Shown here piece by piece: positions 7,171 to 35,653 of a DNA stretch of 64,000 nucleotides. The stretch's first letter is position 1. Every line of letters begins with the position of its first letter. Source of the stretch: Liolophura sinensis (Eukaryota > Mollusca > Polyplacophora > Chitonida > Chitonidae). Made by a program: the position numbers and the translations under genes. The DNA is taken from the NCBI RefSeq assembly GCF_032854445.1, contig NC_088301.1, positions 34,643,187-34,707,186 on the forward strand, written 5' to 3'. The notes beneath the pieces are model-generated. The model ran no database searches and was not told where the DNA came from. It saw only the letters and a program-made list of their open reading frames with translations.

Positions 7171-9604
7171 AACACAAGGCATACAACAAGGGATCTAATG
7201 GAGTACACGTGCATCAAAGTGTTTGGGAATCCGAGGAGGAATAAAAGTATAGAATACAGAGCAAAGACAAAGGTGTCCAATGGATGGAAAGTTTCGGAAA
7301 TAACGTCATCCATGAACTTACTGGAACACGAGACCAACTTAACTCTCATACCCTCATTAGGGCTCCTCCCCCTTAAGAGTTCTTTTGACAGCAATCATCG
7401 TTTACGTTACTACAGCAAGCTGCTTAATACCCAGACTGATCTATGGGGCCTTGCGAAGACTGTAGTTTAAAGACATTTTCACACCACAAAAGCGTTTATA
7501 CCCTTATATATTAGGACACATCCCTCACTTCATGTTAAGAAGCGATGTATGTATCCTTCAAAGTCCATGGTACTGCAGTCATTAAAGTATCACGCCGAAG
7601 ACACCAGATATGACACATTATACGGACACCGGGGTAGTTCTGTTTCCCTGCTTTGATCTCTTATTGCTGAGCGCCAAGCGAGGAACAAAAAGTACCAGTT
7701 TGGAAGTCTTCGACATAATCTGACATGGGTTTCATCGCAGGTCTTCCGACTGTGAAGCAGACGGTGTGACATGATGAATGTTCAAGGTTGAGGAAGCATA
7801 TCTGTACATTGATGAAATGTCCAGTTTACACCACCATCTCAAACATGAAGCGATGCTATTGTGGAACACAGTGGTTCCACAAATGAATATCGAATGAATA
7901 CATCCTTTATTTAGTATGATCTAGTTATTACTTTTGTGGTCGCCTTAGTCAATCGATGTAGGAACAGTTTTGATTTGCTTTCTGTGCAAATGAAAACTCA
8001 GAGTGCTTGCTCTTTTCCTTCATTGTGCGCATAGAGCGCTTGACTGTTTGTCGTAGCCCGTTATCTGGCCTTTCCTAGGTTAATGTTCGAGCTACAATAA
8101 ATACTTTTTTTTATAGATTTCTGAATGACGGAATCTCTGACTTGTAGGGCAAAACTCTTGTCTTACACAGAAAGACACATTGTCAATCACCTCAGATGTA
8201 ATCTTCACTGCAGTGGAACAGGTGTCCACAAAAGAAATTTGCAGCAGTGTATCCTTTCTGTTGGCTACTAGAGTACCAGCAGTAAAGCAAAAATACCGGC
8301 ACAATAAATTACTCCGGCATCTAAAAACAATTTATTCTAGTTTCTTTTCAGTGGTTCTCAGTGTTAGGCCCATTACACAAACGCATATTACTCATCAGTC
8401 TCAAGTTAAAGTCCAGTCTATCCCTTTTCATTTTTACTAATTGATTTTTTCTTTTTTCTATATCATGAACACAATATGCGCCAGGCTGTACTTGAAATTG
8501 CAGAACTCTAATAGCCTGGACAATGGCAACGCTGTTGGCGAACAACTTTTCACTACGACTTTCTGTTGTTTTGTACCACAAATATAATATAGACATACAT
8601 CTATACAGGCATATACACTTCTTTGTTACGTTCTTTTTTTCTTCCTCATTTCACTTCAACTCAAGTAGTTACTGTTGCTTCCTTACTGTGAAGAATCAGA
8701 AATCAATGCTCTAAAGTAAATGCCAAATGCCCCAACCTTGGCAACACGCGGCATTTTCTCTACAATTTAACCTCTTCAACGAACAAATATCAGTGAACAT
8801 TCAGCTTTATTTTATCTCAAGATAAATTACATACACAAAGAGCAAGCATACATTTCTATGGCAAGATAATCAAACAAAGTATCACAAACTATATTATATT
8901 AATAAATGATACATGTACATGTATTATTTACATACACTATTAAATGATAAAGTTCCCACACAGAATAATACAAAAAGTATCACTACGCTATCACAAACCT
9001 TCGGAATAAATATCAATTTCACACCCCGTATGAAGTACTCCAAAAAAAAGTAGCATGGCTTACTTGAGGAAACCTATGGAATAAATCTCAAACACCGTGT
9101 AGGCCTGGGGCGCTCGCCATAAATGAAAAATACTTTCACACAGGCACAAACATGCCATCCAAATCTCAAAAATTGTAGTACATCGGGAAAAAATACATTT
9201 GTACATATAATTGTACAATTGTGAGAAAAAGGATCTGTACCACGGTCTGTACAAAGCACATGCACTGATTAAACAAGAAGTAGCACTATGCGCATGCGGA
9301 GTAAATTTCAAATATCACAGCCAGTATATAGAGCAAAGGAAATAAATCAAAAAGTACTGTTAGGCTATACCTGGACAAACGTAAGCACCAAATCTCCAAT
9401 GTCAGTCCGTTTACAGCAAATGCCCCAAAATTTAACCGTCTGTTTTTTCCGTGAAGATGAACATATTTACATCACCCTTGATGTACCAAGAAGAAATTGT
9501 GGTTAAAGATGATAATTCTTTCACACATATTAACACTGCCGCATATAAAAAAAAATATTGAACCGCCTGCCCAAAACGCAAGATGTTCATAGATTGTCTT
9601 CTTT
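7171..9604. other. Gene-free flank; includes downstream flank of the unknown minus-strand gene
   Basis: No domain-bearing open frame was found. The right-hand part lies just downstream of the stop codon of the minus-strand repeat gene and should contain its 3' UTR. I could not assign a polyadenylation site with confidence. Confidence 0.45.
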
Positions 9605-12600
9605 TTACTCTTCATCACTTTTAGCACCACAACACCAACAGAAGAGCCGCCTTGCACATCTCAATTTCTGTTTTCTGTCCTTTCTGGCCCATTCTGTAAT
9701 AGAAAAAATCATATATCAGACAGGCTTAAAATGAGGTTTTGTTTATTACTATACATTGATAATCAAGAAATTCGTGAGTTTTCGCAGATGGCCACTTAGT
9801 TTTGCAGAAACTTTACAACAACAAGTTATAACAACGTTATAATAACTTTTAGCACAATTATTTAAGTTTGTAAAACGTGCATTTAAAAACCTATTTAATG
9901 TTTACATCAATTCATTGGTTATCAACGCTGGTTAAATAGGTTATCAACGCATATTATTATGCTAGTTTTGTCCGACTTCGGCTCTATCCAGCCAAAGAAA
10001 GCGTACTAATAACGGAACGGACCTGCGGTAATTAATTCAAACTCTTTTTCGGAATGTGGGAGATCTGACTCTGTCTTCTTTTCTCTTTGTACGCCTAAGT
10101 CCTAAAACAGAAGTACAGACATCCATTAGAAACAGACACCAGTCAACAAAACCCCTTTCTTATTATACAAAGGTACATCAAACCCTGAGAATGATACATT
10201 TTATTGTCTATGTATAACAAAAGAGTCAGAAGGGATTTAATATGTTAGTCTTTACCTGTGTTTTGCTGGGTTTCTCGCCTTCACCTTTCACCTTGTGGTC
10301 TTCTACTCTCTTCAGGCGTCTGCTTGATCCAAAAAATCTTTTAATCTGAAAAAAAAAGCAATTTGAAAATGTGACAAAAAGATCACTGGACTCAGAAAGT
10401 GCATTGTAACGTGATATAAAGACAGTAGCATGGTACACTCTGGTAAATCAGATAAAATTACATTTATAGGTCCAAGAAAATTATTTTATCGGAATGTTTA
10501 AAATAATTCACCTTGAATAGTCTTCTGATACCAGATGGTTTGGTCTGGCTTTTTTTGATGCTATCATCTTTTCCTCTGTCGGTTAGTCTGACAAGTGGCT
10601 CTTTTCCCGACTTTGTGCTTGTCTGGTATCCATCTGTGTTTTTCTGGAAAAGATTTCCCTGAGGCTGTTCAGCAAGCATTGCCTGTGGTTGGTCAGTATT
10701 TTGAGTCGGACGTTGGTCAACCTGTCTGGATTGCAAATGTCTGTCTGATCGTTGTCCACAAACCTCCTCTACCTGTCGATTGGTGAATCTCTGACGTTGA
10801 TCAAAAAATTTTGCCTCTTGGTGAGCAAGGTTTACCTGGGGTTCATCAGCAAGCTTCATCTGTGGTTGGTCAGCAGGATTTGCCTGTGGTTGGTCAGCAG
10901 GATTTGCCTGGGATTGGTCAGCAGGATTTGCCTGGGATCGGTGAGCAGAATTTGCCTGTGGTTGGTCAGCAGGATTTGCCTGTGGTTGGTCAGCAGAATT
11001 TGCCTGGGGTTGATCAGCAGGATTTGCCTGGGATTGGTCTGCAAGATTTGCCTGTGATGTGTCAGCAGGATTTGCCTGGGGTTGATCAGCAGGATTTGCC
11101 TTGGATTGGTCTGCAAGATTTGCCTGTGATGTGTCAGCAGGATTTGCCTGGGATTGGTCATCAGAATTTACCTGTCGTTGGTTAACAGGATTTGCCTTTG
11201 GTTGATCAGCACGCTTCGGCTGTGCTTGGTCAGCAAGCTTTGCCTCTGGTTGATCAGCAAGCTTTGATTGTGGTTGGTCAGCAAGCTTTTCCTGTGGTTG
11301 GTCATCACACTTTGTCTGACGTTCTTCAGCAAGCATTGCCTGTAGTAGGATAGCAGGCTTTGCCTTTGGCTGGTCAGCAAGCTTTGTATGTGGTTGGTCA
11401 TCACACTTTGTCTGACGTTCTTCAGCCGGCTTTGCCTGTGATTGGCCAGCAAGATTGTCTTGTGGCTGTTCAGCAAGCTTTGCCTGCGGGTGTCCATCTC
11501 GATGAGCTGATTGTTCTCCATGACTATGTTCTCCCTGTGGCCTGGCTTTTTTTGACTTTTTGACAGGAATTTCATTTTTCTCAAGGAGTCCGTCGCCGTT
11601 GTGGGAAAGGTACCCGGAATCCATGGAGGTTAGAAGCTGAATATCCAACTTTTGAACCTTTCGGAAGATTTGCGCTATCAGGGTGCCTATACAGAGAACT
11701 GCAATAAGATATACTCAAAGTCAAAACCGCAGGACTCCGGTAAACAGATCCCAGCGATAAAACCTAAATTTTGGTCAGTCAGACGTTATTGTATCTCTAA
11801 TTTTACTCTTCAAAATCAGTGTTGGAGATCAAATGTCCTTTTCTAGACAACGTTAACAATCACATATAAATACATGTTAGCAACAACCAAGCGTTAACTC
11901 ACCCCTCAAGACTTGACACAAACCTTCAACATTCCTGGCTCTCCTGTATGGTTCCATTGAACGACCTTTTAATGATCCGCTACCAGACACAGCACAGATT
12001 GATGCGGCGGCTTTCAAGTGACTGAAGCTCAACTGCAAGTGTAGAAAAAACAAGAAAAAGATAGATTAAAGAAAATAAATCTTCAGTTTCAGCGACACAA
12101 CGATTTTTTTCGTGGTTGAATTGCTTAGTATAAAACACTTACCTCCTCACTTATGTCGTCTAGTTCGAGGTTGTGGGATGTCTTTGTACAAGCACTGAGA
12201 ATAACGGGTCTTGACCCTTGAATGATACCTTGAACATAGTCCCTGGCTGAGTGAGCTACAGCAGACATACAAAACACAACACTGTAGAATACTGCTGGCG
12301 ATTTTCAAAGTTTTCAGAACTCTCCATTAAGCATATAAGGAACATTACATATGTTTGTTAGAATTTATGGAAGCGTTTTAGGTAAAAGTGTGTGATTTAA
12401 TTTAAAACTGGTGTTAACAATGGAACATCGTGTAGGTTACAATATGTGAATTCTGCTGGTTATTCATGATGCGCTTGTGATACTCACAGTAAATGATCAT
12501 GGGTGATTTGGGCGTCCACAACTTTGCGTCCTCTGGTCTTTCCTGTCGAGCAAATAGGGTATAATTGAGTATATTTGTTATCACAGAAAGCATGAAAAAC

Positions 12601-15600
12601 ATATGTGTTTCTTATGGAAAAAGTTTTCGCAAAAATTAAAGAATTATGAAAGTGCCATTCTAGTCTTAATAATGATGCCATGCATTACCTTATAAATATA
12701 GAGACATGCTGCAATCCACATGCGCTGTACGAATAAAAATGTCAGGAAGATGACATAATTAAAAAGTGGAATAAGTTCCTAAAGTTTACCATTCCATTAT
12801 CCTCTTCTAGATCCATTCTGTAAACTCGACTTCCCTTGGGTATCTCCGTGAAGGTGAACTCCGTTTTGACGGTGTACCTCATGAACTTAGCTAAAAATCC
12901 AATACATACAGGGTTTTATTAATTTCTACAAGGCAGAATAATATTCGCCATTTAAGACAATGAGGTGATACGTGAGACAAATATGCTGATGTTGAACTTT
13001 AGTCTAATATATTGCAATTAACATCACTGCATGTTTTGTTTATTCTGTTTTTTACCTAACTCTGTTTATGCCATGGTGCTGATGAGGCATGTAATTTGCT
13101 ACTTTTCAAACATTTACATGAACAGCGCAGACGTAAATTGACAAGAGGCCGGATTTCACAAGCTAGGTTAATATATACTGATATTTAAGACGATTTAAGG
13201 GAAACTGACCTACATACATTATTTGAAAGGGGTAACCAAACTCACATTTGCACTTATTTTTCTCTCGGGAAATTGATGGCCGGAGATTCGTTGTAGACCT
13301 GGAACAGGACAAGATGGAGGTTGGCACTGTATCTGTGGTGGGAACTCCATCCACGGAACCGTCTGGTTTATAACAAGGAGTATGTGGGGAAGCCTGGGTG
13401 CCGCCTTGGGGCTTAGCTGAGGGTAACCATGGCACAGAAACTTTAGCACGTCCTGGAACGTTACACGGGACAAAAATATGGATTAGTGCTCAAAACAAAA
13501 TGACCGTTATCATATTAAAAAGACCAATTCGAACAGTGAAGTGATATTTAAACACGTTTTATCTCTGCTGACAGTTCTAATAAGACCTTACAAAGATATG
13601 GCACATTGTTATATAAGTGCCGGTACGTCAGATGATAGACGATGACAGCTTAGCACGGTTGAAATCATGTAGTCATATTAAGGGCTTATAGGGCTGTTAT
13701 TAAATCGAAATGCTTAGAAATAAATGAAATTATTTACCACCAATCTTCGGAAAATCAGTCGTCAACTGTACCTGACCCAACTCCTTCAAATAAAAGAAAA
13801 TATTGATATGTAATAATAGGTACACACGTACTTATTTCTAGCCTTAACCGTGTAATCTTGCCAGCCAGGTGTCTATGCTGTTATATTTTAAAATTGTAAA
13901 ATGACAAACATACGTGTATCTGCATAATCTAAATTGTGCATAAAGGCCAATTGTTTTTTTTTTTTCTTCACAACCTCATATATATATATATATATATGGA
14001 AGCTAGGTGGACTCTAATCTAACATTGTATGGCGAAATTTTACTAGCCTCCCTGTATCGTGCATGCAGATTAACATACATTCATCTGTTCAAATTGGAAC
14101 CCACCTGATGTAGTATAAATCTATCATATATACCTTGGGTTGGTTTACTTTGGTCTCCATATCAGTCTGCTTCCTGGCTTTGTGTATCGGGAATGTCCCC
14201 AGATTTTTCCTCCGCGTGTTCCTCATGTATAGACTGACCAGGTATGCTAAAAAAGCACAAAAATGCATTCAATTATGTTCGAATTTCAAAACCCATCAAG
14301 AGTATATAACTCGTTACTGTAAAAGCTGACCAGAGTTTTTTTTAAATTTTTTATTTTTAAATAATGATAAATTGTCAGATGGCTTTTATTATCTAAACCA
14401 CATTGATTTTTTAAAGAAAGAACCAAACTATACCAAAGGTACATGTGTATCGATAAAGTACCCCTCAGAAAGATCTAAAAATCTTAACTTCGTATTTTTG
14501 TGATATTGCAAAACCGAGATATCATAGATCATGGTTAACAAAATCTCCCACAATGAGAAAATCGAAAGAGCCAAAATATTATCAGTTTTAACCAATCAGG
14601 CGTAAGTTATTTCTATAACCAGAGGACGCAGATGTTACCTGAACCCTGCAAAATGTCTACTCGAGGTACGAGTGAAGCGACTTTTTTGACGTGTTGCCGG
14701 TTGCTCTAACAAGGCACCTGGCCTCGTAACAATTCCTGGTTAAAGCTGATTATAGAATTGCTAAGCATCACATAAAAAATGTCTTTGGTCGTTAAGAACC
14801 CAGCACTCTTCCTAAATAACTCAGGTCACATTATTTGTTATCTTTTCTTTTAACTAAAACATCCACCATGTTGGTGCCACACGCACCCCACCCACTCGCC
14901 CCTCCTCAAGGATCAATAAAATCCGCAAATCATCCTTTGTTATATGTAAAGTTTTGTACTCACGCATTCTGTTTTTGTCCACGTGATCTTCAAGCAAACT
15001 TACTCCGTAATATACTTCTGTGATCCAGTCGCTTCTCTGTAGGCAAGCGAATTTTTCATACGTATAAAATTAAAGGAAACAAAGAAATGACAAATCACGC
15101 AGAGTTATCCTTTTCAATTCTGTATATAAATGTAAAACGGCACAGTTAAAACTCGACAGCCATATAATCTTTTTGAATGTGACTATCGACTGTTTGTAGT
15201 GGATTAGAGACAAGCATGTTGTAGAAAGCTGTATACCTGAGCGTGGCGTCGGGTATTCCCCTTGAAGACGACACTCCTTGGCAATATGCCGTCCTGATTA
15301 CGGATCCTGCCCTGTAATACAGGACTTAGCTTGCTCTGCTGGTCACGCCGAAGAAACCACAGCAGAGGTCCATCACATACAGTCTGGTTTATCAAAATCA
15401 GGCACTTTGGGCGATCTGTAATATCAAAAGTAGCATCAACTTATATTAAATTACATTTTACACTTTTTTTATATAATATAGTAAAGTTGGTTCCTGTGTA
15501 ATGTAAAAAGCGACAAGCATACCAAGTATACAGCGCAAACATTCATTCTTTCTTAAACTGGTATCTTTTAACAAAAGCATTAGATAAGAAATCTGTTAAA

Positions 15601-16350
15601 TATGTAAAAAAGATAATCATGTCAATGTAATCAAATCTGGCCTCATGACAATATACTCACCTATTTCTTTCGACATGTCATTGTTCTGAGTAACTCTAGA
15701 AACCGTATCAGCTTGTTCTGCTGACATTTTGAAACTTCTGAAAGAAAATATGTCAGTCTATATATGTAGGAATCTATATACTCTGTTTCTGACACTAATA
15801 AATGCCCACAGTGAAGATGTCAACAAATAAAGAATACGTTCTAATCTGTTGATGACAATGCCAAATGCAGATCATGTAACGGTAAAAAAGACGAGTGTAC
15901 ATATAACTTTAAATATGGGCTACCTTATCTGTAAATGTGAACATGAGCTGGTCATCGCTGATGATTAAGAAATTTGTGATGGCTTACGAAATGTTGGCAT
16001 ACCTTTGTGTTATACACAGTTATGTAGTATAAAGCAATACCTTGTAGTCAATTTGTTGTTGAGAAGTAATTGCGTAGTTTCCTGATACAACCAGATAAAA
16101 AGAAGTAAAAGTCGCTTAAGTTACAGTTGCAAATATGTTCCACCTATTTGAAACCATACAACAGTAAACTCATCTATCATATGCAGTTTTGCAATAATCT
16201 TTGCTTAAACACAAACTTACCAGTCTCTCTCAGTAAAAGTGATGTCTTTTCCCTCGGGGGATTGAGAATCACTGTACGCGACGTTGCCACGGACAATCGC
16301 TCTGTGTACGTCATCAACGGAAATGACGTAACTGTAAAGCCGGAAACGGT
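9605..16350 (-). CDS. Unrecognised 14-exon gene: octapeptide-repeat protein with Cys-rich basic tail
   Basis: Predicted coding exons in order: 15727-15661 (ATG), 15415-15237, 14705-14639, 14246-14134, 13783-13741, 13452-13246, 12890-12790, 12542-12488, 12255-12143, 12032-11903, 11686-10512, 10345-10256, 10101-10023, 9693-9605 (TAA). All have GT-AG borders and every phase matches, giving 835 residues. The 67-bp third exon was chosen to restore phase and is the weakest call. A non-coding first exon ends at 16221. Residues about 1-140 are shared with the inverted duplicate. About 225-370 is a compact region without repeats and contains the word GSGSLKGRSMEPYRRARN. About 424-655 is about 29 copies of an 8-residue unit, consensus QPQANPAD or QPQxKLAD. 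The C-terminus is basic and ends in RRLFCWCCGAKSDEE, which could be lipidated (inference). There is no signal peptide or membrane segment. I do not recognise the family. Confidence 0.7.
10800..11495 (-). repeat. 24-bp minisatellite coding for the 8-residue repeats
   Basis: About 29 tandem 24-bp units lie inside the large exon (11686-10512) of the unknown gene. Because 24 is a multiple of three, several frames on both strands stay open. The minus-strand frame reading QPQANPAD is the one that joins in phase with exons on both sides. The most uniform copies are at about 10860-11190. Units towards the N-terminal side vary more (ERQTKCDD, QPQSKLAD). Confidence 0.9.
13979..13998. repeat. (TA)n microsatellite
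   Basis: An uninterrupted TA run of about 20 bp, lying between two exons of the unknown minus-strand gene. Confidence 0.9.
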
Positions 16351-16684
16351 TTTTAACGCTAGCTTATGTTATGACACAGCTATTTCAAAAGGAAAATGAG
16401 ATATATCTTAAATACATATCGCTGTGGAGACATTATTAGAAAACAACCAGGAATACTGCCACATCGATCGGTGTGATGTGATACCCCGAAACCTGGATGT
16501 GATCCACGTTGTTTCCAAACGTTATTTAGACTACAAACGTAACGTTATTCGGCTATCCCCGGCTTCTCTGTGACGTCATTTCCATTGACGACTGACACAG
16601 ATCGACTGTCCGAGGCAACGTCTGGCTGAGTGAATCTCAATACCCGATGGGGAAAGAAATCACTTTTGCTGAGAGATACAGGTT
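16220..16684. promoter_or_regulatory. Near-palindromic bidirectional promoter / paired 5' exons
   Basis: Two arms of about 130 bp, 16221-16350 and about 16550-16681, are imperfect reverse complements around a spacer of about 200 bp. Each arm ends in a splice donor pointing outward: GAGACTG|gtaagt for the minus gene (exon edge 16221) and GATACAG|gttaag for the plus gene (exon edge 16681). Both arms carry a CRE-like core: TGACGTCATTTCC at about 16571 on the plus arm, and TTACGTCATTTCC in the minus-strand reading of the other arm. The arrangement is what an inverted duplication of the gene's 5' end would leave. Confidence 0.65.
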
Positions 16685-16734
16685 AAGTCTAAGGTCTAAG
16701 CGGCTTTGTGTTATATTATACATTACCTCGCCGT

Positions 16735-16875
16735 GACTTGCAGATCAATGGCGTATCGATGGCGTAGGGTCACGTGTTCGAACCCAACTCTCCCGGCTTT
16801 GGGACTTTAAGTGAGAAACTTTGTCAGGTACATTGCCAAGGTAGGTGGGTTATTCCTGGCTCTCCGGTGTCCGCA
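16735..16875 (+). mobile_element. tRNA-derived SINE fragment, family 3
   Basis: A B-box-like GTGTTCGAACCC is followed by a body with GTCAGGTACATTGCCAAGG and GGTGGGTTATTC. The body resembles the copy at about 43370-43560. It lies in the first intron of the plus-strand duplicate. Confidence 0.55.
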
Positions 16876-18059
16876 ACTTAACCCTTTTATCCCGATCGTT
16901 GTCACATATGTGAACAAGTCCTGAGTTGTAAAGTTACCACCAAATAAAAAAATAAATTGAGCCACTGTATTTACACAAATGTTCTATCATCACAAATTCC
17001 ATTGTCATCATCAACTTTCAGCTAGTGAATTCCCATCTAAACATAAAGTATATTCCATGCACACGTGTCACGTTATCAGCAGTTGCATACACCCATCTTT
17101 CTGATCCTTTGACGATATGGATCGTGTGTCCGCAAGAGATGTGTGCATGTTTATATTTGTTAATGTTATTTATCGGTCTCGGCAACGTGATTATGTACTA
17201 CATATTTTCTTTCAGAAGTTTCACAATGTCAACAGAACAATCTGATACGATTTCTACTGTTAGCGGAAAGAGTGAAAAGTCGAATGGCACAAGTAAGTTT
17301 ACTATCACGAGATTTGAGAGTACATTTATCACAAATTAATCATCAGTCGCGATTGTCTTTCACCGAGTAATCACGATTGAAATTGAGTGAGTAGTGTTCT
17401 ACCAACTGTGGTATCGGGATCGGTCCATTGAAATTGACTGTGTACATATAACTGTGTTCAACTGAACACCAAAGCAATCATTCAATCTATTCCAGTTTAA
17501 CCATGGAGTCTCATTAACAGGCAGAATCAAGCTGTAACTGAAGCAAAAGTGGGCAATGGTAATGGTTTTCTGTAACAAATTTTTAGTCTAAACATCATTA
17601 TCAAAGATAAGGGCTGCTCTAGTAGAATAAGGAGTTGAGCTGTATACATTCAGACTCGTACTTTTCAATAGGCCGGACGCAGATACCAAACCAGGTATTT
17701 GGGTCCATTTAACTAAATTCTTTACTCACACCAAATGTAGTCATCCACCGGAATAATTCGGAATATTTGCCCCAAAGTGTAACAGAGTGTAAAAATCCAC
17801 TGAAACGTAAGTTATGTTATGTTATTTTGATGTAAATATTACAGATCGACCGAAGTGCCTGGTTTTGATTAACCATACTGTATGTGATGGACCTCTACTC
17901 AGGTTTCTTCGGCATGACCATCAACACAAGGGACGAGTCAAAAACCAAAACGGCATATTACCCAGGAGTGTTGTCTTCAGGGAGAATACCCGCCGCAACG
18001 CAGAAGTACAGCTTTCTTCAGCATGTTTCTCCCTTATGCACTACACGCTATGATGATGT

Positions 18060-19185
18060 CTTTCTTATCATGCTCTAAACCAATCTCGCACGGCGTCCTC
18101 CAAGGATCTGTTACTATTTTTGATCTACATTCATGACATAACTGCAACCAGCATAGTAAAATTTATTTTGTTTGCCGATGATACTAGTATCCATACCTCT
18201 TCTAAGAGTCAAAGTAGTGCAATAGACATAACGGCAATGGATTAACTAAAGTTCATCAGTGGCTCTCAGCCAACCACCTATCACTTAATATCGCCAAAAA
18301 TAAGTACATACTAATAGCACCTATCATTAGGGGACACACAAATGCAAGCCTCATTTTATCAAACAACAGTGAAATTATCTCTATTTCAGAATTTAAATTC
18401 CTTGGAAATGTATTTAACAAGCTTTCTCGGGTCTCTCATATAACGCATATCTGCAAACAATATCCAGGAACATAGGAATCAAAAGCCACATAAAATGTTC
18501 ACTCAAGAAAATGCTTTGCTTACATTATACTATTCCCTGATAAGTAAATTCTTTATGGGGAAATACCTGTCTGAGTCATCTCAAGCCTCTAGAAATTCTA
18601 CATAAACGATCGATTCGCATCATCATCTTATATTTATGTTTCATCCCTATCGACTGCCATACTCTATCCGACTGTTCTTTCCACAACAATCACATACCCA
18701 CGCCTGCTCAACCAGGTCCCAGACATCCAACGTACACAAAGCATTTTGGAAAGTATTTCTTCCTACCACACACTCAGGGTATCCGTGAGTGGAACAAAAC
18801 TGCCAAACAACTTAAAAAATCTATTTCAAATTTTAAATCAAGACTCAAAGACTTTAAAATTGACAGATTATAAGCCACCTGACACCTATCATACTTTACA
18901 AAGAACATATATGGCCTTTTGTATTTATTTGCGTGTTATTTCTATTTTGTGGTTTCTTGTGGATCTATTTTCTTTCTATTCTTTATTTGTTCTATTGTCG
19001 TTTTCAAATCTCTTATGGTACATATATGACTACCTCCACGGAAAAATTAATTTTGTGTAACTATTGGGATAGGACAGGTCCATAAGGACTTAATTCCCGC
19101 CCTCAAACTTCGAAAGATGCTTGCCTTCTCATGTACTGAACTATACGATGATCAAATAAAATGAAACAAAATAAACACAATATTC
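18060..19185 (+). mobile_element. Degenerate non-LTR retrotransposon (LINE) RT fragment
   Basis: In shifting frames, RT motifs HGVLQGS (about 18088) and FADDTSIH (about 18171) appear in the normal order. They are followed near the end by GIREWNKTAKQLKKSISNFK and a TAA at about 18871, the typical C-terminal end of jockey/CR1-like LINE polyproteins. Several frameshifts and stops make it non-functional. It lies in an intron of the plus-strand paralogue, after the point where similarity to the minus copy breaks off. Confidence 0.75.
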
Positions 19186-19479
19186 AATATAAAAAGGTAC
19201 TGAAGAGTTCTATTAATAAAAGAGTAAGTCCGTTCAATGCGTATCGCTGTCCATTTCCGTTAAGGACTCGTGTATAAAACACGCCCGTGTCCGCGGAGAA
19301 ATGCTGCATGGATCACAGAGGTTTATTATTATAAACATAAAACCCAAATTGACTCCATGTACATTATGGTGCACATAGGATGGTCCGAAGCTCGTATACT
19401 GGACCCTTATGCGGTGGGTAAGACAAATGTGTTAGTGGGTGTGGTTCAGGTCCTTAAGTATTTAAAATGATTTGCAGTT

Positions 19480-19568
19480 TCGGATGATCGTGGGTTTCTT
19501 CCGGGCTCTGCCCGGTTTCCTCCCACCATAATGCTGGCAGCCCTCGTATAAGTGAAATACTCTTGAGT
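19480..19568 (+). mobile_element. SINE family 1, 3'-tail fragment
   Basis: Contains CCCGGTTTCCTCCCACCATA, then ATGCTGGCAGCC and AAGTGAAATACTCTTGAG. This is the tail of the family seen complete at 2.4 and 32.1 kb. The tRNA head is missing. The copy lies about 95 bp upstream of a paralogue exon. Confidence 0.75.
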
Positions 19569-20430
19569 TCTTTCATTTCTCGAGAAAACAATGGTGTTAT
19601 ACAGTACTTGATGGTTTTTAAAATTCGAACATGATTGAGTGCATTTTTGAGTTGTTCCAGCATACTTGATCAGTCTATACATGAGGATCACGCAGAGGAA
19701 AAACCTAGAGATATTTCAAATCGACAAGGCCAGGAAGCAGAGCAATTTGGAGATCAAAGTAAACCCACCCAAGGTAAATATGCAAGATTTATACTACAGC
19801 ATTTTAATGTGATGGTCATTATATAATGTCACTTTGTTCAGTCATGCAAGGTGGGGTCATACTCCGAGAAGACAAAACTACGTGTAATCAACAGGTATTG
19901 ACAATAAGAGCAGTAAATTAATGCCTTACAACATTAAACCAGAGGCAAAATTCACAAAACTCTCAGGTATAAGATAATGAAGAGAAGGCAAATGAAATTT
20001 ACTTTTGTGCACAATTTACATTTTATACGGATTAACCATGTGTTCGTCAGTTCGTCAGACGCTGCAACAAAGTGGAAAACTACAGGAGACAGGTGAAGTC
20101 TAGAAATCCAGCAAGACACAGGTGAAGACTAACAGATTAAATTCCCGAGTAAAGAGAAGATAAGACGTCTGTGACCATATGTTAAACTTCTACTCGAAAA
20201 ACGCATTCCTCTTACTGTTGTGAATTATTATACAGTCATTATCACATCATAGATGGAAGTAAAATACATAGACTTGATGGGAGCTCTGTGTCTCCAATTA
20301 CATTTTTACACTGTACAATGCGAATTTTTGTATTTTATTTTATTTCCTTCATTTTTGGGTGGAGGCTACCAGAGTGATTGCATTTTATTAAACCATCTTC
20401 ATGTACCTGACAATCCTCTTGACTAAGTTG

Positions 20431-20765
20431 ACCCGCCCGGATAGCATAGTTGGTAGAGCGTCCGCTTCGAAAACGGTAGATCCAGGATCAATCCTGGGTC
20501 GAGTTAAGGTCTTTTTAAGACCTTAAAAGAGGAAGTTGTAGCTTTCTCGCATGGCGTTGAGCATGAAGGGGTTAGTGCAACGACTGGTGACCCGTATCAG
20601 TATAATGGCTCGGGTGGGGCAGCTTATCTTCGATAAGTCTTCTCAGTGAAGAAGCACTAGATAAACAAGGAGGCACATTACCTACACCCTAAGGATTCTG
20701 TCGTCGTCATATGACTGAAAAATTGTTGAGTACGACATTAAACTCCAAGCACTCACTCATTCACT
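20431..20765 (+). mobile_element. tRNA-derived SINE, family 2 (full length)
   Basis: The head GCCCGGATAGCATAGTTGGT with AGAGCGTCCGCTTCGAAAAC and B box GGATCAATCC looks like a tRNA. A body of about 200 bp follows, then a tail with CGTCATATGACTGAAAAATT and GAGTACGACATTAAACTCC. A reverse-strand copy with the same head, body and tail lies at 57505-57870, and a diverged copy at about 22830-23070. Confidence 0.85.
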
Positions 20766-20811
20766 CTTGACTAAGTTACACTCTAAGAAGTGAGGTACTT
20801 CAGCGCGCGAA

Positions 20812-20882
20812 CTCATTGGTCAGGGGCCTGACAATCGCCGAATGCCAGCGCTCTAACCATCTTAGCTATCGAGTACCCTAAA
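20812..20882 (-). mobile_element. tRNA-like SINE head remnant
   Basis: On the minus strand, TAGCTAAGATGGTTAGAGCG resembles an A box and GAGTTCGCGCGC a B box. The stems do not fold into a convincing tRNA, so I take it as a SINE head rather than a functional tRNA gene. Confidence 0.5.
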
Positions 20883-21338
20883 GTATCACTCAGTTCAAGG
20901 AAACGGAAGAAAAATACAAAAGAAGACAGATTCTTGCCAAAGTCCGATCATAAGTTTGGATCAAATACAACTGGTCAGTTCTCTTTCACATTTTATATTT
21001 CTCACTGTAATACAGTGTGCTGATTGGATACAGAGGCACAACTAGCATATCTTGCACCAAGATTTCAAATGTATGTCCACTCTTTGGGTAATTTTGGGTA
21101 AATTTGGGTAACAAAAAAAAAGATACCATTTATTACTAGACAAGGACTTGCAGGCATGGAAATTGCTCTAAAAGTTGCAAACTTAGGGGCAGAACAAAAT
21201 GGTCATCCGCTGTACGAACTCATTTTGATCTGATATATAGTCGCTTGCCGCACAGAAACCTGCAGGAAAGAGCGACAACAGAAATCGAGACGGGCAAGTC
21301 GACTCTTCAGTTGGTGTGGTGGTGCTAAAAGGAATTAA

Positions 21339-21960
21339 GAATAGAAAGAAGAATACCGTTGGAAATAAGCTACGGGAAAACAGCTTTGTTTGCCGCATAG
21401 CTAATGTTAAGGAAACTGTTGTGATCTTCAACCGCATTTTTCTCTTGCTGAATACAGGAGGTTGATGTTTTGTTCATTCGTTTAGCTGCCAACTGACGTT
21501 TCATTTGCGCAGACCTATTCATGGAACACACCAAAGATTAAATCATATTAAAAGCATTTCTAGCATATATACAGACTGTGATATTGCAGATGTACATTCC
21601 CAGGATTCCTTAACGAGTAAGTTTTGTATAGCCTCTAAATTTGAGGATTTATCTGAGTTTTATTCCACATACCCCTCCATGCTATCTATTTTGTTTATTT
21701 CATACCAACAATATTGGAGTTTTCTCCGCATGTTTGTGTTATGTCACCTGCTTTTTACGGACTGCATTGATATTTCTATCATTTACTGAACATGTAGACT
21801 TTTGTATTTCCATTTTTGTTACTCTATTTCTTAATTTGTACATGTACAAGTAAATGGACCGTGAGACAAAATAAACAAATTCACACAGATAAACGAGACT
21901 GCTGAAATTGTAGAAAAATATCCCTCGAGTTAGAAATCGAGGCATCCTTTACAAAAAATG
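21339..21960. other. No supported gene
   Basis: AT-rich sequence downstream of the paralogue's terminal exon. No domain, repeat array or RNA gene is recognised. Confidence 0.45.
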
Positions 21961-21964
21961 CTGG

Positions 21965-22092
21965 CTTCCTCTCCGGCCGTACGTGGGAAGGTCTGTCAGC
22001 AACCTGGGAATGGTCGTGGTCAAAATGCTGACCGTGAAATATTCTTGAGTACGGCGTAAAACAAAAATCCACTAAATAAATAAATAAATATA
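21965..22092 (+). mobile_element. SINE family 1, internally deleted
   Basis: Carries the central CCGGCCGTACGTGGGAAGG and CTGTCAGCAACCTG, then jumps to GAAATATTCTTGAGTACGGC and a (AAAT)n tail. Most of the CCTCCCACCATAATGCTGG segment is deleted. Confidence 0.75.
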
Positions 22093-22829
22093 GCAGAAAA
22101 GCATGCAGCGTTGACGTGGTAACGTGGAACGAATAGTTCAACAGTGATATGAAATTCGTCACTGGAATATTGTGCTAATGGTAATCATTAACGGTTTGCA
22201 GGTTATCATTTTTCTGGTCTCTCGAATCTCTTTGCATTAACATTATTGTGATACTGTTGACGTATGATAAGGCACCTTCGTCGTTCGCATGCACCTTATG
22301 GAAAGACAGACCAAAAGAAAGGAAATCATTGTATACGCTTATATATAAGTTTAGATACATAATTTTTTATAGAAAAATCTTTATACATCCGTCTTTATAT
22401 GTTCATACCTACTGTCAGCCTCATATAAAATTGCCTGCAAGCTGAGAGACTGATTTAATGATACATCGATTCATAGATGACCCACTCTGATCCTTCTTAA
22501 GCCAACAAGATTATACATACGTTTATAACAGGCCTATTTCATTTCATCTATATAATATGCAGACTGTGGAATAATATATTTTAAAAAGACATACCTTAAC
22601 ACTTGCCTCGGTTATTTTATAAATTATTTTTTTAACATACATACTGCTTGCATGGAATGTTCGGATTTTCTAAATTTACAGAAATAAGACCACTCGGAAA
22701 TATGCCTGGGCCGCTTCAATACCAGTGTACAGTATTATACAAGTGAAATAAGCGAACACAATACCATCTTGGCGGAACTATACACAAATAACTAACTCTA
22801 AATAGGTTGACCAACTTGCTGTTTCCTCG
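22093..22829. other. No supported gene
   Basis: AT-rich sequence downstream of the esterase exons. A final esterase exon with the catalytic His could be expected on the minus strand here, but I did not find one. Confidence 0.4.
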
Positions 22830-23070
22830 CTTGGCTCCCAGCACTGAGAGGTTACAGAGCAAGGAAACATGACTGGTTAAACGGGTGTTAGTATAATGTG
22901 ACTGAGTGGGGTGTCATGTCTAATATCTTTGGCATGATACTTCAGTAGCGGCGGCACTTTGGCGTCATGGACTTGCCTGTTACAAGAAGAAACAGTATAC
23001 ACACACCAAATGACATCTCGTCGTCATATGAATGAAAAATTGTACGACGTTAAACGCCAAGCATACATAC
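22830..23070 (+). mobile_element. SINE family 2, diverged copy
   Basis: The body has AGTATAATGTGACTGAGTGG and the tail has CGTCGTCATATGAATGAAAA followed by GTACGACGTTAAACGCCAAG. The same order is seen in the full-length copies at 20.4 and 57.5 kb. The tRNA head is not clear. Confidence 0.65.
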
Positions 23071-26459: not shown

Positions 26460-28930
26460 TAGCATCTATTTGATGTTATAGGTTCTGTTGGCTTCACTGC
26501 TTCTAATGGAATAACATAGTCTAGAAGGAGTACTGTTTCTATTGGTTCGAATAATTCAACTTTCAACTGGCCTTATTTCTTGTATTGGCCTTACTGCTTC
26601 CACTGTTCTACAACTATATGCAGAAACTGTTAAGGAGTAATCCTCACCAGGCCCGATATTTCTCATCCACTAAACAGTATAATGATGATCTGCTGGCTTT
26701 AAACAATCCATATATAGCAAAGGCTGTGAAAGATATTTACCCACCTTCGCTGGATTTAAAGGAAACCAGAGACTCTTCAGATGGTACATCTTATCTGGAC
26801 CTATATTTGTACAAACTTTCCTTACTTGGACAGCAATATGCCGAAGGGTCCTCCATATGGCGTGTACACATCTCGCCTTGTAGCATTTGTTAGATCCAGT
26901 GTGTTGTGTGGCGATTTCAGTCAACGTCACGAGTTATTACTGCAAAAACCAGTGTGTCAAGGTTATTCCATCAAACGCCGTTACTCCGTTTCCTAAGTTT
27001 CACAATGAGTACAGTTCTCTTGTATGTAAATATGGACAGAGCCTCTAGAATCTGTGGAGCTCTGCTTCATGATTGTGTCATGATTGTGTAATTCCGCTTA
27101 ACCCGGGGCTTGAGGCGACATATTTATCGTGTTGAATTATATCGTCACGTTGGATATATGAACAGTTCCAAACAAAGCACAACTGAGATACATGAGATAC
27201 ACGATTTGAATACTGATTTCACTCTTTCGCATGCCCTGCGTCTTTCCTAAATCATTGAAAACTGTTGACCGTTTCTCTTTCCGTCATATTTTCCTACTTT
27301 ATATACTTTCTTAGTTCTTTGGTAATTTGTGTTAAACGTCGTTTTTTGGAATTGTCCTCGTGATTATTAACCCGTAACATCCTCATTGGTTGACGGCTGG
27401 TATAGGAATGTCTCTTTCGACGCATGGATCCACAGGTCTCGCTGCTTGTATTGGTCCTACTGCTTCCACTGGACTCGCTGCTTGTAGTGGCCCTACTGCT
27501 TCCACTGGTCTCGCTTCTTATATAGGTCCTCCTGCCTCCACTGGTCTCGTTGTTTGTATTGGCCCTACTACTTCCATTGGTCTCACTGCTTGCAGCGCCC
27601 CTACTGCTACCACTGGTCTCGCTTCTTATATAGGTCCTCCTGCTTCTAATGGTCTTGCTATTGTATTGGCTCTACTGCTTCCACTGGACTCGCTGCTGGT
27701 ATTGGCCCTACTGCTTCCACTGGTCTCGTTGCTCGTATTGGCCCTACTGCTTCCACTGGCCCCGCTGCTTGCATTGGCCCTACTGCCTCCAATGGTCCCG
27801 CTGCTTGTATTGGCCCTACTGCCTCCACTGGTCTCGTTGCTTGTATTGGCCCTACTACTTCCATTGGTCTCACTGCTTGCAGCGCCCCTACTGCTACCAC
27901 TGGTCTCGCTTCTTATATAGGTCCTCCTGCTTCTAATGGTCTTGCTATTGTATTGGCTCTACGGCTTCCACTGGACTCGCTGCTGGTATTGGCCCTACTG
28001 CTTCCACTGGGTTCGTTGCTTGTAATGGTCCTACTGCTTCCACTGGTCTCGCTGCTAACATCGTAACTTCTGCCTCCACTGGTCTCGCTTCTTATGTTGG
28101 CCTTACTGCTTCTGCTGTTCTCGCTGCTTGTATTGGCCGTACTGTCTCCAATGGTCCCGCTGCTTGTATTGGCAGTACTGCTTCCATTAGTCTCGCTGCT
28201 TGCAGTGGCCCTACTGCTACCATTGGTCTCGCTTCTTATATAGGTCCTCCTGCTTCTAATGGTCTTGCTATTGTATTGGCCCTACTGCTTCCATTGGGCT
28301 CGCTGCTGGTATTGGCCCTACTACTTCCACTGGACTCGCTGCTTGTAGTGGCCCTACTGCTTCCACTGGTCTCGCTTCTTATATAGGTCCTGCTTCTAAT
28401 GCTCTTGCTTTTGTATTGGGCCTACTGCTTCCACTGGTCTCGTTGCTCGTATTGGCCCTATTACTTCCACTGGTCCCGCTGCTTGTATTGACCCTACTGC
28501 TTTCACTGGACTCGCTGCTTGTATTGGCTCTACAGCTTCCACTGATCTCGCTGCTTGCATTGGCCCTATTGTTTCCATTGTATACTGTTTTTGTTGGTTC
28601 CAAAGCTTCAACTGCATGTGTGGGCCTTGCTGCATCAATTGATCTCAATGCTTCTGTTGCCTTTAATGGTCTCACAGCTCCAGACAGCTTTACTGCCTCT
28701 ACTTGTCTTAGTGTTCTAACTGCTCTAACTTCTTACATTCAGTCTCTGCTTACTGTTCTATTCCGCCTAACTGCTTCTGTTAGTCTAACTCTTCGTATCG
28801 ACCCCATGGCTTCCCTTGTTCTCACTGTTTCACATCCTTAGCTCTTGCTTCTCAGCCTGTTAATTCTCACTTCTTCTATTCATCTCAATGCTTTGGTCTT
28901 ACTGCCACTGTTGGTCTTCACTATTCCTAC
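26460..28930. repeat. 36-bp minisatellite, about 40 or more copies
   Basis: The unit is about ACTGCTTCCACTGGTCTCGC plus TGCTTGTATTGGCCCT. The core from about 27400 to 28600 is fairly uniform and both edges decay gradually. Degenerate units reappear at 26460-26620 beyond an inserted RT fragment. A variant block (CAGCGCCCCTACTGCTACCA, then a TATATAGGTCCTCCTGCTTC-type unit) recurs at about 27594, 27881 and 28204, showing higher-order duplication of 8-9 units. Because 36 is a multiple of three, frames stay open on both strands with 12-residue repeats (e.g. TASTGLAACIGP or GPIQATRPVEAV). No flanking exon joins them, so I do not call a protein. Confidence 0.85.
26620..27015 (+). mobile_element. Degenerate retroelement RT fragment inside the minisatellite
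   Basis: The first frame reads SSTKQYNDDLLALNNPYI, IYPPSLDLKETRDSSDGTSY and LDLYLY. After a small deletion a second frame reads NFPYLDSNMPKGPPYGVYTS. The order matches the RT family with a YIDDVLSLNN-type catalytic box, which is common in invertebrate genomes and which I take to be Penelope-like or related (from memory, not verified). The catalytic box is altered to YNDD and frames are broken. Minisatellite sequence lies on both sides. Confidence 0.65.
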
Positions 28931-34600: not shown

Positions 34601-35653
34601 CATATTCAATGTGCAATGTAAAGATCTGCACTCCATATTGGTGATAACACACAAAAGTCCTCAGTGAACATGAGGCTTTGCAACAAGTGCTGCTGACAAC
34701 TTATTGTTACTAAATCCCCCATAAACAGAATCTATGAACAGTGGAATTCTGGGAATCTATGAACAGTGGAATTCTGAGAATCTATGAACAGTGGAATTCT
34801 GGGAATATATGAACAGTGGAAATCTGGGAATCTATGAACAGTGGAATTCTGGGAATCTATGAATAGTGGAATTCTGGGAATCTATGAACAGTAGATTTCT
34901 GGGAATCTATGAACAGGAGATTTCTAGGAATCTAAAAGTTCCCTGTCCAGGATTGAACCTGTACCTAATTGCCTTGCTGTTATAAGTCATGTACCTTACT
35001 CACTGAGCTAAATCCTGCACCTTGAATAATCTGAAGGAGTACATCCCACAAACTAATGCTTACTTTAATGAGTAAATATTAAGATGAAGACATTACTAAG
35101 ATTTATGTTCTCTTTCAATCCCTTGTTTTATATTTTTTCAATGAGTCACAATCTACATGTATATCTTTACACGAATATAGCCCTGACAACATAGCTTATA
35201 TTTTGTGGCTACTCTCATTACTAACTCGCTCAAGAAATTAAGTATTTTAATATAGCAGACTTTTTTTCCCCTGCATACCATATTTTGACGTCATAAATGT
35301 GCATATATTATCAGAAAGATGAAAGCATGGTTGAATCTCAAGTAAACATATCATACTGTGCACCTTGCACCAAAAGTAAGTTTTACATACTTAGCAAGGT
35401 CTTTGAGCTTCTCACTGTATTTGGCAAAGTACGGATTTTTTGTGACATCAAATTCCTTGTCTTTCTGAAACTGCTGCAGAAATGCTGCAGTTGTGGAAAG
35501 TTCCTGTTTCCACGATGACTGAGGTAGAGACATCAGGTGGGGACGGTGTGATCTTGTTACAGTGAGAAAGCAGAAGTGTTTATTCTGGGCTCGTTGCAAA
35601 CACTGGTTACAGTGAACCTGGAACAAACCCTTCTGCAAGTTTCCATAAATGAT
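29721..35653 (-). CDS. ATPAF1: ATP synthase mitochondrial F1 complex assembly factor 1 (5' exon missing)
   Basis: The family (yeast Atp11) is a mitochondrial matrix chaperone that binds the F1 beta subunit during F1-ATPase assembly. Eight exons: 35653-35391, 34393-34258, 33484-33422, 32727-32677, 32469-32422, 31561-31466, 30974-30867, 29894-29721 (TGA). All have GT-AG borders and matching phases, giving 312 residues. Landmarks in order: NPYFAKYSEKLKDLAK, a Lys/Glu-rich coiled segment (EERKKEL-like), LNEIMKVEMVQDKSAEEVEE, IWKQHH, FIYALPRADGYEFILSQF, HFTDFKDTKGIVLMAGKFDE and a C-terminal helix region. These line up with vertebrate ATPAF1 as I remember it. The first listed exon has no in-frame ATG before the conserved part, so an upstream exon with the start and most of the targeting peptide lies to the right, not identified. 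The residues before LPQSSWKQ are basic and fit a mitochondrial presequence. Confidence 0.9.
30599..30631. repeat. Perfect 14-bp hairpin
   Basis: CCCCTGTTCCCACT, a 5-base loop GTTGT, then AGTGGGAACAGGGG. The arms match perfectly. It lies in the last intron of ATPAF1, beside a degenerate SINE tail. Confidence 0.9.
30665..30785 (+). mobile_element. Degenerate SINE family 1 tail
   Basis: GGTTTACTCTGGTTTCCTCA, then ATTGTATAAGTGAAAAAATC and an ATTAAAAAATCAAACAAATAC end follow the layout of the family 1 tail, but with many substitutions. Confidence 0.5.
31600..31626. repeat. (TA)n microsatellite
   Basis: A TA run of about 27 bp in an ATPAF1 intron. A run of about 22 T lies nearby at 31274-31295. 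Confidence 0.9.
32050..32320 (-). mobile_element. SINE family 1 (full length, best copy)
   Basis: On the minus strand the head GCCTCCGTGGCTCAGTCGGT with TAAAGCGCTAGC, a class II tRNA-like variable region and B box GAGTTCAAGTCC are followed by CGTACGTGAGAAGGTCTGTC, CCCACCATAATGCTGGCCGC, CTTGAGTACAGCATAAAACA and a poly-A (T on plus) end. It lies in an ATPAF1 intron and is the reference copy for the fragments elsewhere. Confidence 0.9.
33278..33378 (-). mobile_element. SINE family 1, 3'-tail fragment
   Basis: Reverse-strand tail: ATTTGATTGATGTTTATGCC, then CAGCCAGCATTATGGTGGGA on plus. Head and central parts are absent. Located in an ATPAF1 intron. Confidence 0.75.
34728..34935. repeat. 25-bp minisatellite, about 8 copies
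   Basis: The unit is GAATCTATGAACAGTGGAAT plus TCTGG. Most copies differ at one to three positions; the last two diverge more. It sits in the largest ATPAF1 intron and directly abuts a tRNA-like segment. Confidence 0.95.
34936..35022 (-). mobile_element. tRNA-like SINE head or tRNA pseudogene
   Basis: On the minus strand, GGATTTAGCTCAGTGAGTAA resembles an A box and GGTTCAATCCTGGACAGG a B box. The spacing is roughly tRNA-like, but the acceptor and anticodon stems do not pair well. I treat it as SINE-derived. Confidence 0.5.

Follow-up and report, generated by a model that had tools for sequence, protein, structure and literature searches.

A head-to-head inverted duplication of an orphan gene in the chiton Liolophura sinensis, with one arm decayed

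Within a 64,000-nucleotide stretch of the Liolophura sinensis genome (NC_088301.1, positions 34,643,187 to 34,707,186, hereafter the window), exons of a minus-strand gene recur in reverse orientation on the plus strand, raising the question of how the two sets of exons arose and what has become of each. The reading we consider highly probable is an inverted duplication in which the minus copy stayed whole and the plus copy decayed to a non-processed pseudogene, or nearly so. The minus copy (the intact arm) is a predicted gene model assembled by hand, the upstream end of its first exon being a manual choice, in which GT follows each of exons E1-E14 and AG precedes each of E2-E15:

9605-16331, minus strand: intact arm, 15 exons (a 5' exon and 14 coding exons) with GT-AG junctions and one open frame of 843 aa
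16221-16331, minus strand: E1
15661-15737, minus strand: E2
15237-15415, minus strand: E3
14964-15036, minus strand: E4
14134-14246, minus strand: E5
13738-13783, minus strand: E6
13246-13452, minus strand: E7
12790-12890, minus strand: E8
12488-12542, minus strand: E9
12143-12255, minus strand: E10
11903-12032, minus strand: E11
10512-11698, minus strand: E12, the octapeptide repeat exon
10256-10345, minus strand: E13
10023-10101, minus strand: E14
9605-9693, minus strand: E15

The array in E12 (10818-11486) holds 27.9 copies of a 24-bp unit with an approximate consensus of P-Q-A-N/K-P/L-A-D-Q.

The original prediction proposed a head-to-head inverted duplication mirrored near 16450, and both the arrangement and the mirror point are borne out. 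Self-BLAST of the whole window returned five inverted pairs (E 2e-53 to 5e-17) centred near 16450, namely 16215-16343/16688-16559 (79% identity), 15642-15753/17311-17200 (78%), 15195-15424/18045-17836 (74%), 14106-14310/19801-19596 (82.5%) and 9597-9686/21352-21263 (81%). A permissive arm-to-arm search placed 10 of its 16 rows, all collinear, on a single anti-diagonal, while the other six lay off it at E 2.7 or worse. This search added blocks at E4 (E 0.05), intron 5 (2e-5), E13 (1e-16) and E14 (7e-6), as well as a weak match on the 3' side (0.14). As a control, five other stretches of the window of about 6 kb each were compared with the plus arm on both strands. Three of these ten comparisons gave no match at E 0.01; the remaining seven matched the plus arm mainly at repeats (19481-19568, 20431-20765 and 21958-22103) and also at three weaker places (16776-16956, 17398-17451 and 19134-19224), and none of the ten matched a shared exon block. 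The two arms have in common the 5' exon and traces of seven coding exons (E2-E5 and E13-E15), so the predicted sharing is real, but its count of five exons besides the 5' exon was low, with E4 recognised weakly. Homology outside the exons extends to blocks in introns 1-5, 13 and 14 and in the 3' flank. Because the arms share introns and 3' sequence, the duplication occurred at the DNA level rather than by retroposition; the presence of introns in both arms also means that parent and copy cannot be told apart. The parts of the plus arm, and the spacer between the arms, are as follows:

16344-16558, no strand: unique spacer of 215 bp, putative shared (bidirectional) promoter region, the promoter role being inferred
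16559 to at least 21477, plus strand: plus arm, anti-parallel copy, by collinear homology to the intact arm
16559-16681, plus strand: E1 copy with an upstream part, 123 ungapped columns against 16221-16343 in the arm-to-arm alignment
17216-17292, plus strand: E2 copy, open in alignment, start codon at 17226, AG and GT present
17845-18005, plus strand: E3 copy, open in alignment, with an in-frame shortening of 18 nt, AG and GT present
19272-19328, plus strand: E4 remnant (E 0.05, collinear), aligned with acceptor AG changed to GG, frameshifted, 3' half unrecognisable
19661-19773, plus strand: E5 copy, open in alignment, AG and GT present
19968-20052, plus strand: intron 5 remnant, matching 13980-13899 (E 2e-5)
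20052-20056, plus strand: deletion junction in the arm-to-arm alignment, joining intron 5 (13899) through 3 nt to mid-E13 (10322), E6-E12 missing
20056-20145, plus strand: 3' part of the E13 copy, running into the first part of intron 13 (E 1e-16), acceptor lost, 1-nt loss in alignment
20912-20981, plus strand: E14 remnant (E 7e-6), 4-nt gap in alignment
21256-21338, plus strand: E15 copy, open in alignment, ending at a stop two codons before that of the intact arm

Beyond the E15 copy, homology continues to 21477 and weakly to 21595. By homology, the first exons of the two arms lie head-to-head about 215 bp apart, and the longest self-inverted word in the spacer is 10 bp.

The decay of one arm, as predicted, is apparent when the intact 843-aa frame is set beside the deletion and the splice and frame lesions of the plus arm. 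According to the prediction, the plus arm kept its first two coding exons and its last. E2, E3 and E15 are indeed open, but E5, which the prediction omitted, is open too; open exons thus make up four of the seven coding exons still recognisable. The loss of seven exons, including the octapeptide exon, was also correctly called: E6-E12 are absent, as are the E13 acceptor and the first 23 nt of E13. This loss, which corresponds to some 3.58 kb in the intact arm, resolves to a single junction at 20052/20056 carrying a tandem 8-bp unit present twice, and it looks like one deletion.

Two repeats interrupt the plus arm, as judged from their copies elsewhere in the genome:

about 18048-19175, plus strand: LINE-like insertion in intron 3, 5'-truncated and multi-copy, its frames read by eye
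20429-20766, plus strand: SINE-like dispersed repeat between the E13 and E14 copies

The first of these, lying between E3 and E4 and about 1.1 kb long, accounts for the jump in exon spacing, in agreement with the original prediction. It has 28 other matches in the genome (70-93% identity) with varied starts, six of which end at query positions 1155-1159 (about window 19174-19178) while the others stop short of it, the pattern of a dispersed multi-copy element with a common 3' end and variable 5' truncation. Its frames also contain motifs that look reverse transcriptase-like by eye, although decayed pieces of this element and of three other copies gave no reverse transcriptase match in Pfam. 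This copy pattern and the reading by eye point to a LINE-like element. The SINE-like repeat has 40 other scored matches (72-84% identity) among 5918 first-look candidates. ARAGORN found no tRNA gene in the window, which leaves a tRNA origin of the SINE without support. Two further segments, 7565-7693 and 22814-22962, resemble each other (66%, E 3e-10) in an order and orientation that would extend the duplication. They were rejected as an arm extension because each is a dispersed repeat for which 39 other matches were scored (387 and 2998 candidates, respectively).

A clear order of events had been proposed, from inverted duplication through LINE and SINE insertion to internal deletion, and this part of the prediction finds no support. 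The intact arm lacks the LINE, the SINE and the deletion, so all three would postdate the duplication; the LINE relic, SINE and deletion junction do not overlap, however, so their positions give no order among them. That the SINE is younger than the duplication is only suggested by the 72-84% identity of its copies set against a Jukes-Cantor (JC) distance of 0.33 for the noncoding blocks shared by the arms (506 of 689 columns identical). Over the 139 codons of E2, E3, E5 and E15, dS between the arms is 0.549 and dN 0.206, and a dS of about 0.55 argues for an old duplication. The pairwise dN/dS of 0.37 (bootstrap 0.23-0.63) is uneven by exon, at 1.44 for E2 alone and 0.19 for E3.

We hypothesize that a chiton gene was copied in inverted orientation with a breakpoint just upstream of its first exon, which would have left two copies head-to-head with some 215 bp between them. 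The minus-strand copy would have remained whole. Into the plus-strand copy, a LINE-like element and SINE-like repeats would later have inserted; a single deletion of about 3.58 kb would have removed E6-E12 and the beginning of E13, and splice-site and frame lesions would have accumulated. It is these insertions, the deletion and the lesions that would make the plus copy a non-processed pseudogene or nearly so. A promoter may be common to both arms, and the plus copy probably worked as a gene for a time and presumably yields no useful protein today. The pair resembles other inverted tandem duplicates with a non-processed pseudogene in having adjacent anti-parallel copies, introns present, and one copy whole and one lesioned. 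It differs from the usual pair in nothing of kind, although the deletion is resolved unusually well for such an age.

Open frames at this divergence could instead point to a plus arm that is a living reduced gene, or a transcribed regulatory RNA from the shared promoter, with a short E2+E3 or E2/E3-E15 product. We judge this unlikely. In its favour, E2, E3, E5 and E15 are open, and a substitution-only neutral simulation gives a probability of 0.09 to 0.02 that all four stay stop-free at branch lengths of 0.15-0.3, for exons chosen after they were seen to be open. The pairwise dN/dS, overall and in E3, would also fit, but constraint acting only on the intact arm should already bring the ratio under 1. 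Private amino-acid changes in E3, six in the plus arm against two in the intact arm, lean towards decay, but the excess is not significant (two-sided sign test 0.29). The 5' exon block has no gap in 123 columns against 24 gap openings in 689 noncoding columns (Poisson about 0.016), a rough figure because gap counts differ greatly between blocks (11 of the 24 fall in intron 1), and the block itself came from a search favouring ungapped matches. Chains can be drawn on paper, among them an open E2-E3-E15 of 145 aa and an in-frame E2-E15 of 49 aa; of nine tried, however, five stop at 77-93 residues (E3-E5 joins at 78 aa), one is the 49-aa chain, and three, of 116-145 aa, read through E15 without a stop but in a foreign frame. 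The E4 acceptor is mutated, that of E13 is deleted, and the frames of E13 and E14 are broken. Also improbable is a more specific proposal, that the plus arm was kept under the putative shared promoter and cut by the one deletion to a short gene for a small protein or RNA with the first half of the family's domain (E2-E3, perhaps E15); if true, its product could tune the intact neighbour. The most probable reading of the plus arm is a duplicate undergoing ordinary decay.

The head-to-head arrangement itself could have come from two dispersed duplicates joined by a later rearrangement, as the age of the duplication and the loss of any palindromic centre would allow. We regard this as very unlikely, since both arms begin at one and the same position within the gene, separated by 215 bp, and the searches turned up no further copy of the pair apart from the family member on scaffold C1 described below. 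Least probable is an assembly artefact, whether of haplotype copies or a false join. The published assembly, issued under the name L. japonica, was built on 14X HiFi data, and the heterozygosity given there is 1.24% (PMC11068029), far below the divergence of about 20% or more between arms that also carry different insertions; the window contains no run of N.

Relatives were sought in the same genome and in domain and structure databases. Scaffold C1 carries a third member of the family on its minus strand (59312245-59320922). Its exons E2-E5, E8 and E10-E12 stand in the same order, it too has a long tail exon with repeats, and identity across the middle region is 39%. No head-to-head partner was found on C1, the fetched locus reaching about 650 bp upstream of the E2 region. 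Own-genome search identities to the intact arm are 75% for the plus arm and 65% for the C1 member, and in E3 they are 74% and 50% (alignment A1, with the C1 member compared over a longer stretch). On these pairwise identities, the C1 member is more distant from the arms than they are from one another. The first 446 aa of the 843-aa protein have no Pfam match, and members of alignments A1 and A2 gave weak single matches (E 0.16 and 0.15). A match of the octapeptide exon to Fibrinogen_BP, at 24.6 bits against a cut-off of 50, was set aside as a low-complexity likeness. PDB searches with the single protein and with the N-terminal profile found no sequence relative, and four matches to the middle profile (E 0.081-1) are unconvincing. 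The only likeness to TIR-domain proteins is a pattern of hydrophobic runs seen by eye in the N-terminal domain; a TIR domain there or in the middle region was rejected when profiles were compared with those of 12 TIR loci from this genome (probability 0.1% and 0.4%, respectively, against 99.8% for two TIR subsets compared with each other), and the Pfam scan was likewise without TIR. Judged by the searches made, the gene is a member of a small orphan family with no Pfam or PDB relative, and a limited, broad literature search found no publication on the locus.

The duplication event is ordinary, the orphan family is of modest note, and nothing known is overturned. The locus offers a well-resolved decay of an inverted duplicate, with a breakpoint by the first exon, a single readable deletion junction, later repeats, and frames still partly open despite a dS of about 0.55. 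The tail repeats of the two chromosomal members have unlike unit lengths, 63 bp (21 aa) in the C1 member against 24 bp (8 aa) in the C7 gene described here, a feature that could aid annotators of chiton genomes.

The inverted gene duplication at this locus is real and old. Its arms stand head-to-head, one of them is decaying, and the gene belongs to a small orphan family. The components of the locus are as follows.

16331 to 9605, minus strand: intact arm, a predicted gene with a 5' exon (E1) and 14 coding exons (E2-E15)
16344-16558: 215-bp spacer
16559 to at least 21477, plus strand: decaying arm, exons named after their intact counterparts
Both arms, upstream half of the homology: 5' exon; intron 1 with E2; E3; E4 (E 0.05); E5; part of intron 5
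Both arms, downstream half: E13; E14; E15 plus 3' flank as far as 9457/21477; a weaker stretch reaching 9301/21595
About 18048-19175, plus arm: LINE-like insertion, 28 other matches at 70-93% identity
20429-20766, plus arm: SINE-like repeat, 40 other scored matches at 72-84%, among 5918 candidates

The intact gene was modeled by hand from the sequence and reading frame, with the upstream end of E1 hand-set. The model gives a single 843-aa frame closed by a stop, with GT following each of E1-E14 and AG preceding each of E2-E15. E12 holds a 24-bp tandem array (27.9 copies) whose octapeptides look approximately like P-Q-A-N/K-P/L-A-D-Q.

The inverted duplication named in the original prediction is borne out: BLAST over the whole window recovered five inverted pairs around approximately 16450, and 10 of the 16 rows of a permissive arm-to-arm search fell on one anti-diagonal, the six others all having E values of 2.7 or worse. 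Of ten control comparisons, three gave no match at all; the rest hit repeats plus three additional weak sites, and none hit a shared exon. Retroposition is excluded by the introns common to both arms. An additional pair (7565-7693/22814-22962) agrees in order with an inverted duplication; extension that far was rejected because both members are dispersed repeats, and the duplication is thus taken to end near 9301-9457/21477-21595.

In the intact arm, intron 5 is alignable up to 13899 and homology resumes in mid-E13 from 10322; the corresponding plus-arm matches stop at 20052 and start at 20056. The plus arm therefore lacks E6-E12 together with the acceptor and initial 23 nt of E13. The loss is equivalent to 3,576 intact-arm bases and reads as a single deletion. 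The joint carries an 8-bp unit twice in tandem, and a tandem short unit at a joint is a frequent trace of end-joining repair. Elsewhere in this arm, E4 is shifted and has the acceptor GG instead of AG, 1 nt is missing from E13, and a 4-nt gap interrupts E14; E3 falls 18 nt short of its counterpart and stays in frame. The predicted history holds in outline, although its order (duplication, LINE and SINE insertion, internal deletion) was over-specific: neither repeat overlaps the deletion, so their positions set no order of events. Six of the 28 LINE-like matches end at a common 3' place; the LINE-like identity is putative, read by eye from the frames, and a Pfam search of the decayed pieces tried gave no confirmation of a reverse transcriptase.

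E2, E3, E5, and E15 are open in the plus arm, and their 139 codons give, arm against arm, dS 0.549, dN 0.206, and dN/dS 0.37 (bootstrap 0.23-0.63; E2 1.44, E3 0.19, E5 0.30, E15 0.58). Constraint acting just on the intact arm would already bring this pairwise ratio below 1. JC is 0.33 for the pooled noncoding blocks, 73% of whose columns (506/689) are identical, and 0.24 for the 5' exon. In a substitution-only neutral simulation all four exons were stop-free with P = 0.09, 0.05, and 0.02 at branch lengths of 0.15, 0.2, and 0.3, which only hints at constraint on the plus arm during part of its history because the four were picked from seven for being open. With the related gene on scaffold C1 as outgroup, E3 shows six changes private to the plus arm and two private to the intact arm (five columns ambiguous), an excess that is not significant (0.29). 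Of nine plus-arm splice chains tried, none carries the original frame through all of E3, E5, and E15. Five terminate after 77-93 residues, E2-E15 stays in the original frame and yields 49 aa, and E2-E3-E15, E2-E5-E15, and E2-E14-E15 read across E15 in a foreign frame and terminate at 21465, with lengths of 116-145 aa.

Across its 123 columns the 5' block is free of gaps, compared with 24 gap openings over 689 noncoding columns (chance roughly 0.016). This hints slightly that the plus-arm start region is retained, perhaps through a promoter common to both arms. The plus arm contains TGACGTCA at 16571 and the intact arm TGACGT words, which may be CRE-like sites.

Own-genome protein searches, which score best candidates only and may let distant members escape, placed the family at the two arms and one C1 locus (59312245-59320922, minus strand). 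One gave 16 matches (13 in the arms, three on C1), another 13 (eight on C1, five in the arms), and another four, all in the arms. In the C1 region examined (59303601-59321600), exon order equals that of the window's gene wherever matchable, and the tail exon has a 983-aa open frame. Its tail repeat is 63 bp/21 aa, in contrast to 24 bp/8 aa in the corresponding exon of the window's gene; one family thus has two members with unlike repeats. The conserved parts showed no convincing likeness to Pfam families or PDB chains, and a guessed TIR identity was rejected. The same genome has 103 TIR (PF01582) matches at E 0.001 or better, several clustered on scaffolds C13, C11, and C4.

The window occupies scaffold C7, 34643187-34707186, in an assembly of 609,464,459 bases in 632 contigs. 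For its chiton assembly, the Hong Kong Biodiversity Genomics Consortium gives 632 scaffolds and 609,495,693 bases (longest 96,433,062, N50 37,343,639; PMC11068029), and the authors' correction names the species Liolophura sinensis, not L. japonica (PMC12441733).

Elsewhere in the window, a 36-bp tandem array (27429-28577, 32 copies; higher-order unit 287 bp, four copies) sits inside plus-strand open frames 27378-27920 and 28260-28841 and is perhaps the repeat exon of another gene. Long plus-strand frames at 44462-46267 (601 aa) and 49506-51623 (705 aa) both have EGF domains, the latter with 18 EGF stretches, and a 25-bp tandem array lies at 34728-34934 (8.3 copies, 93% matches).
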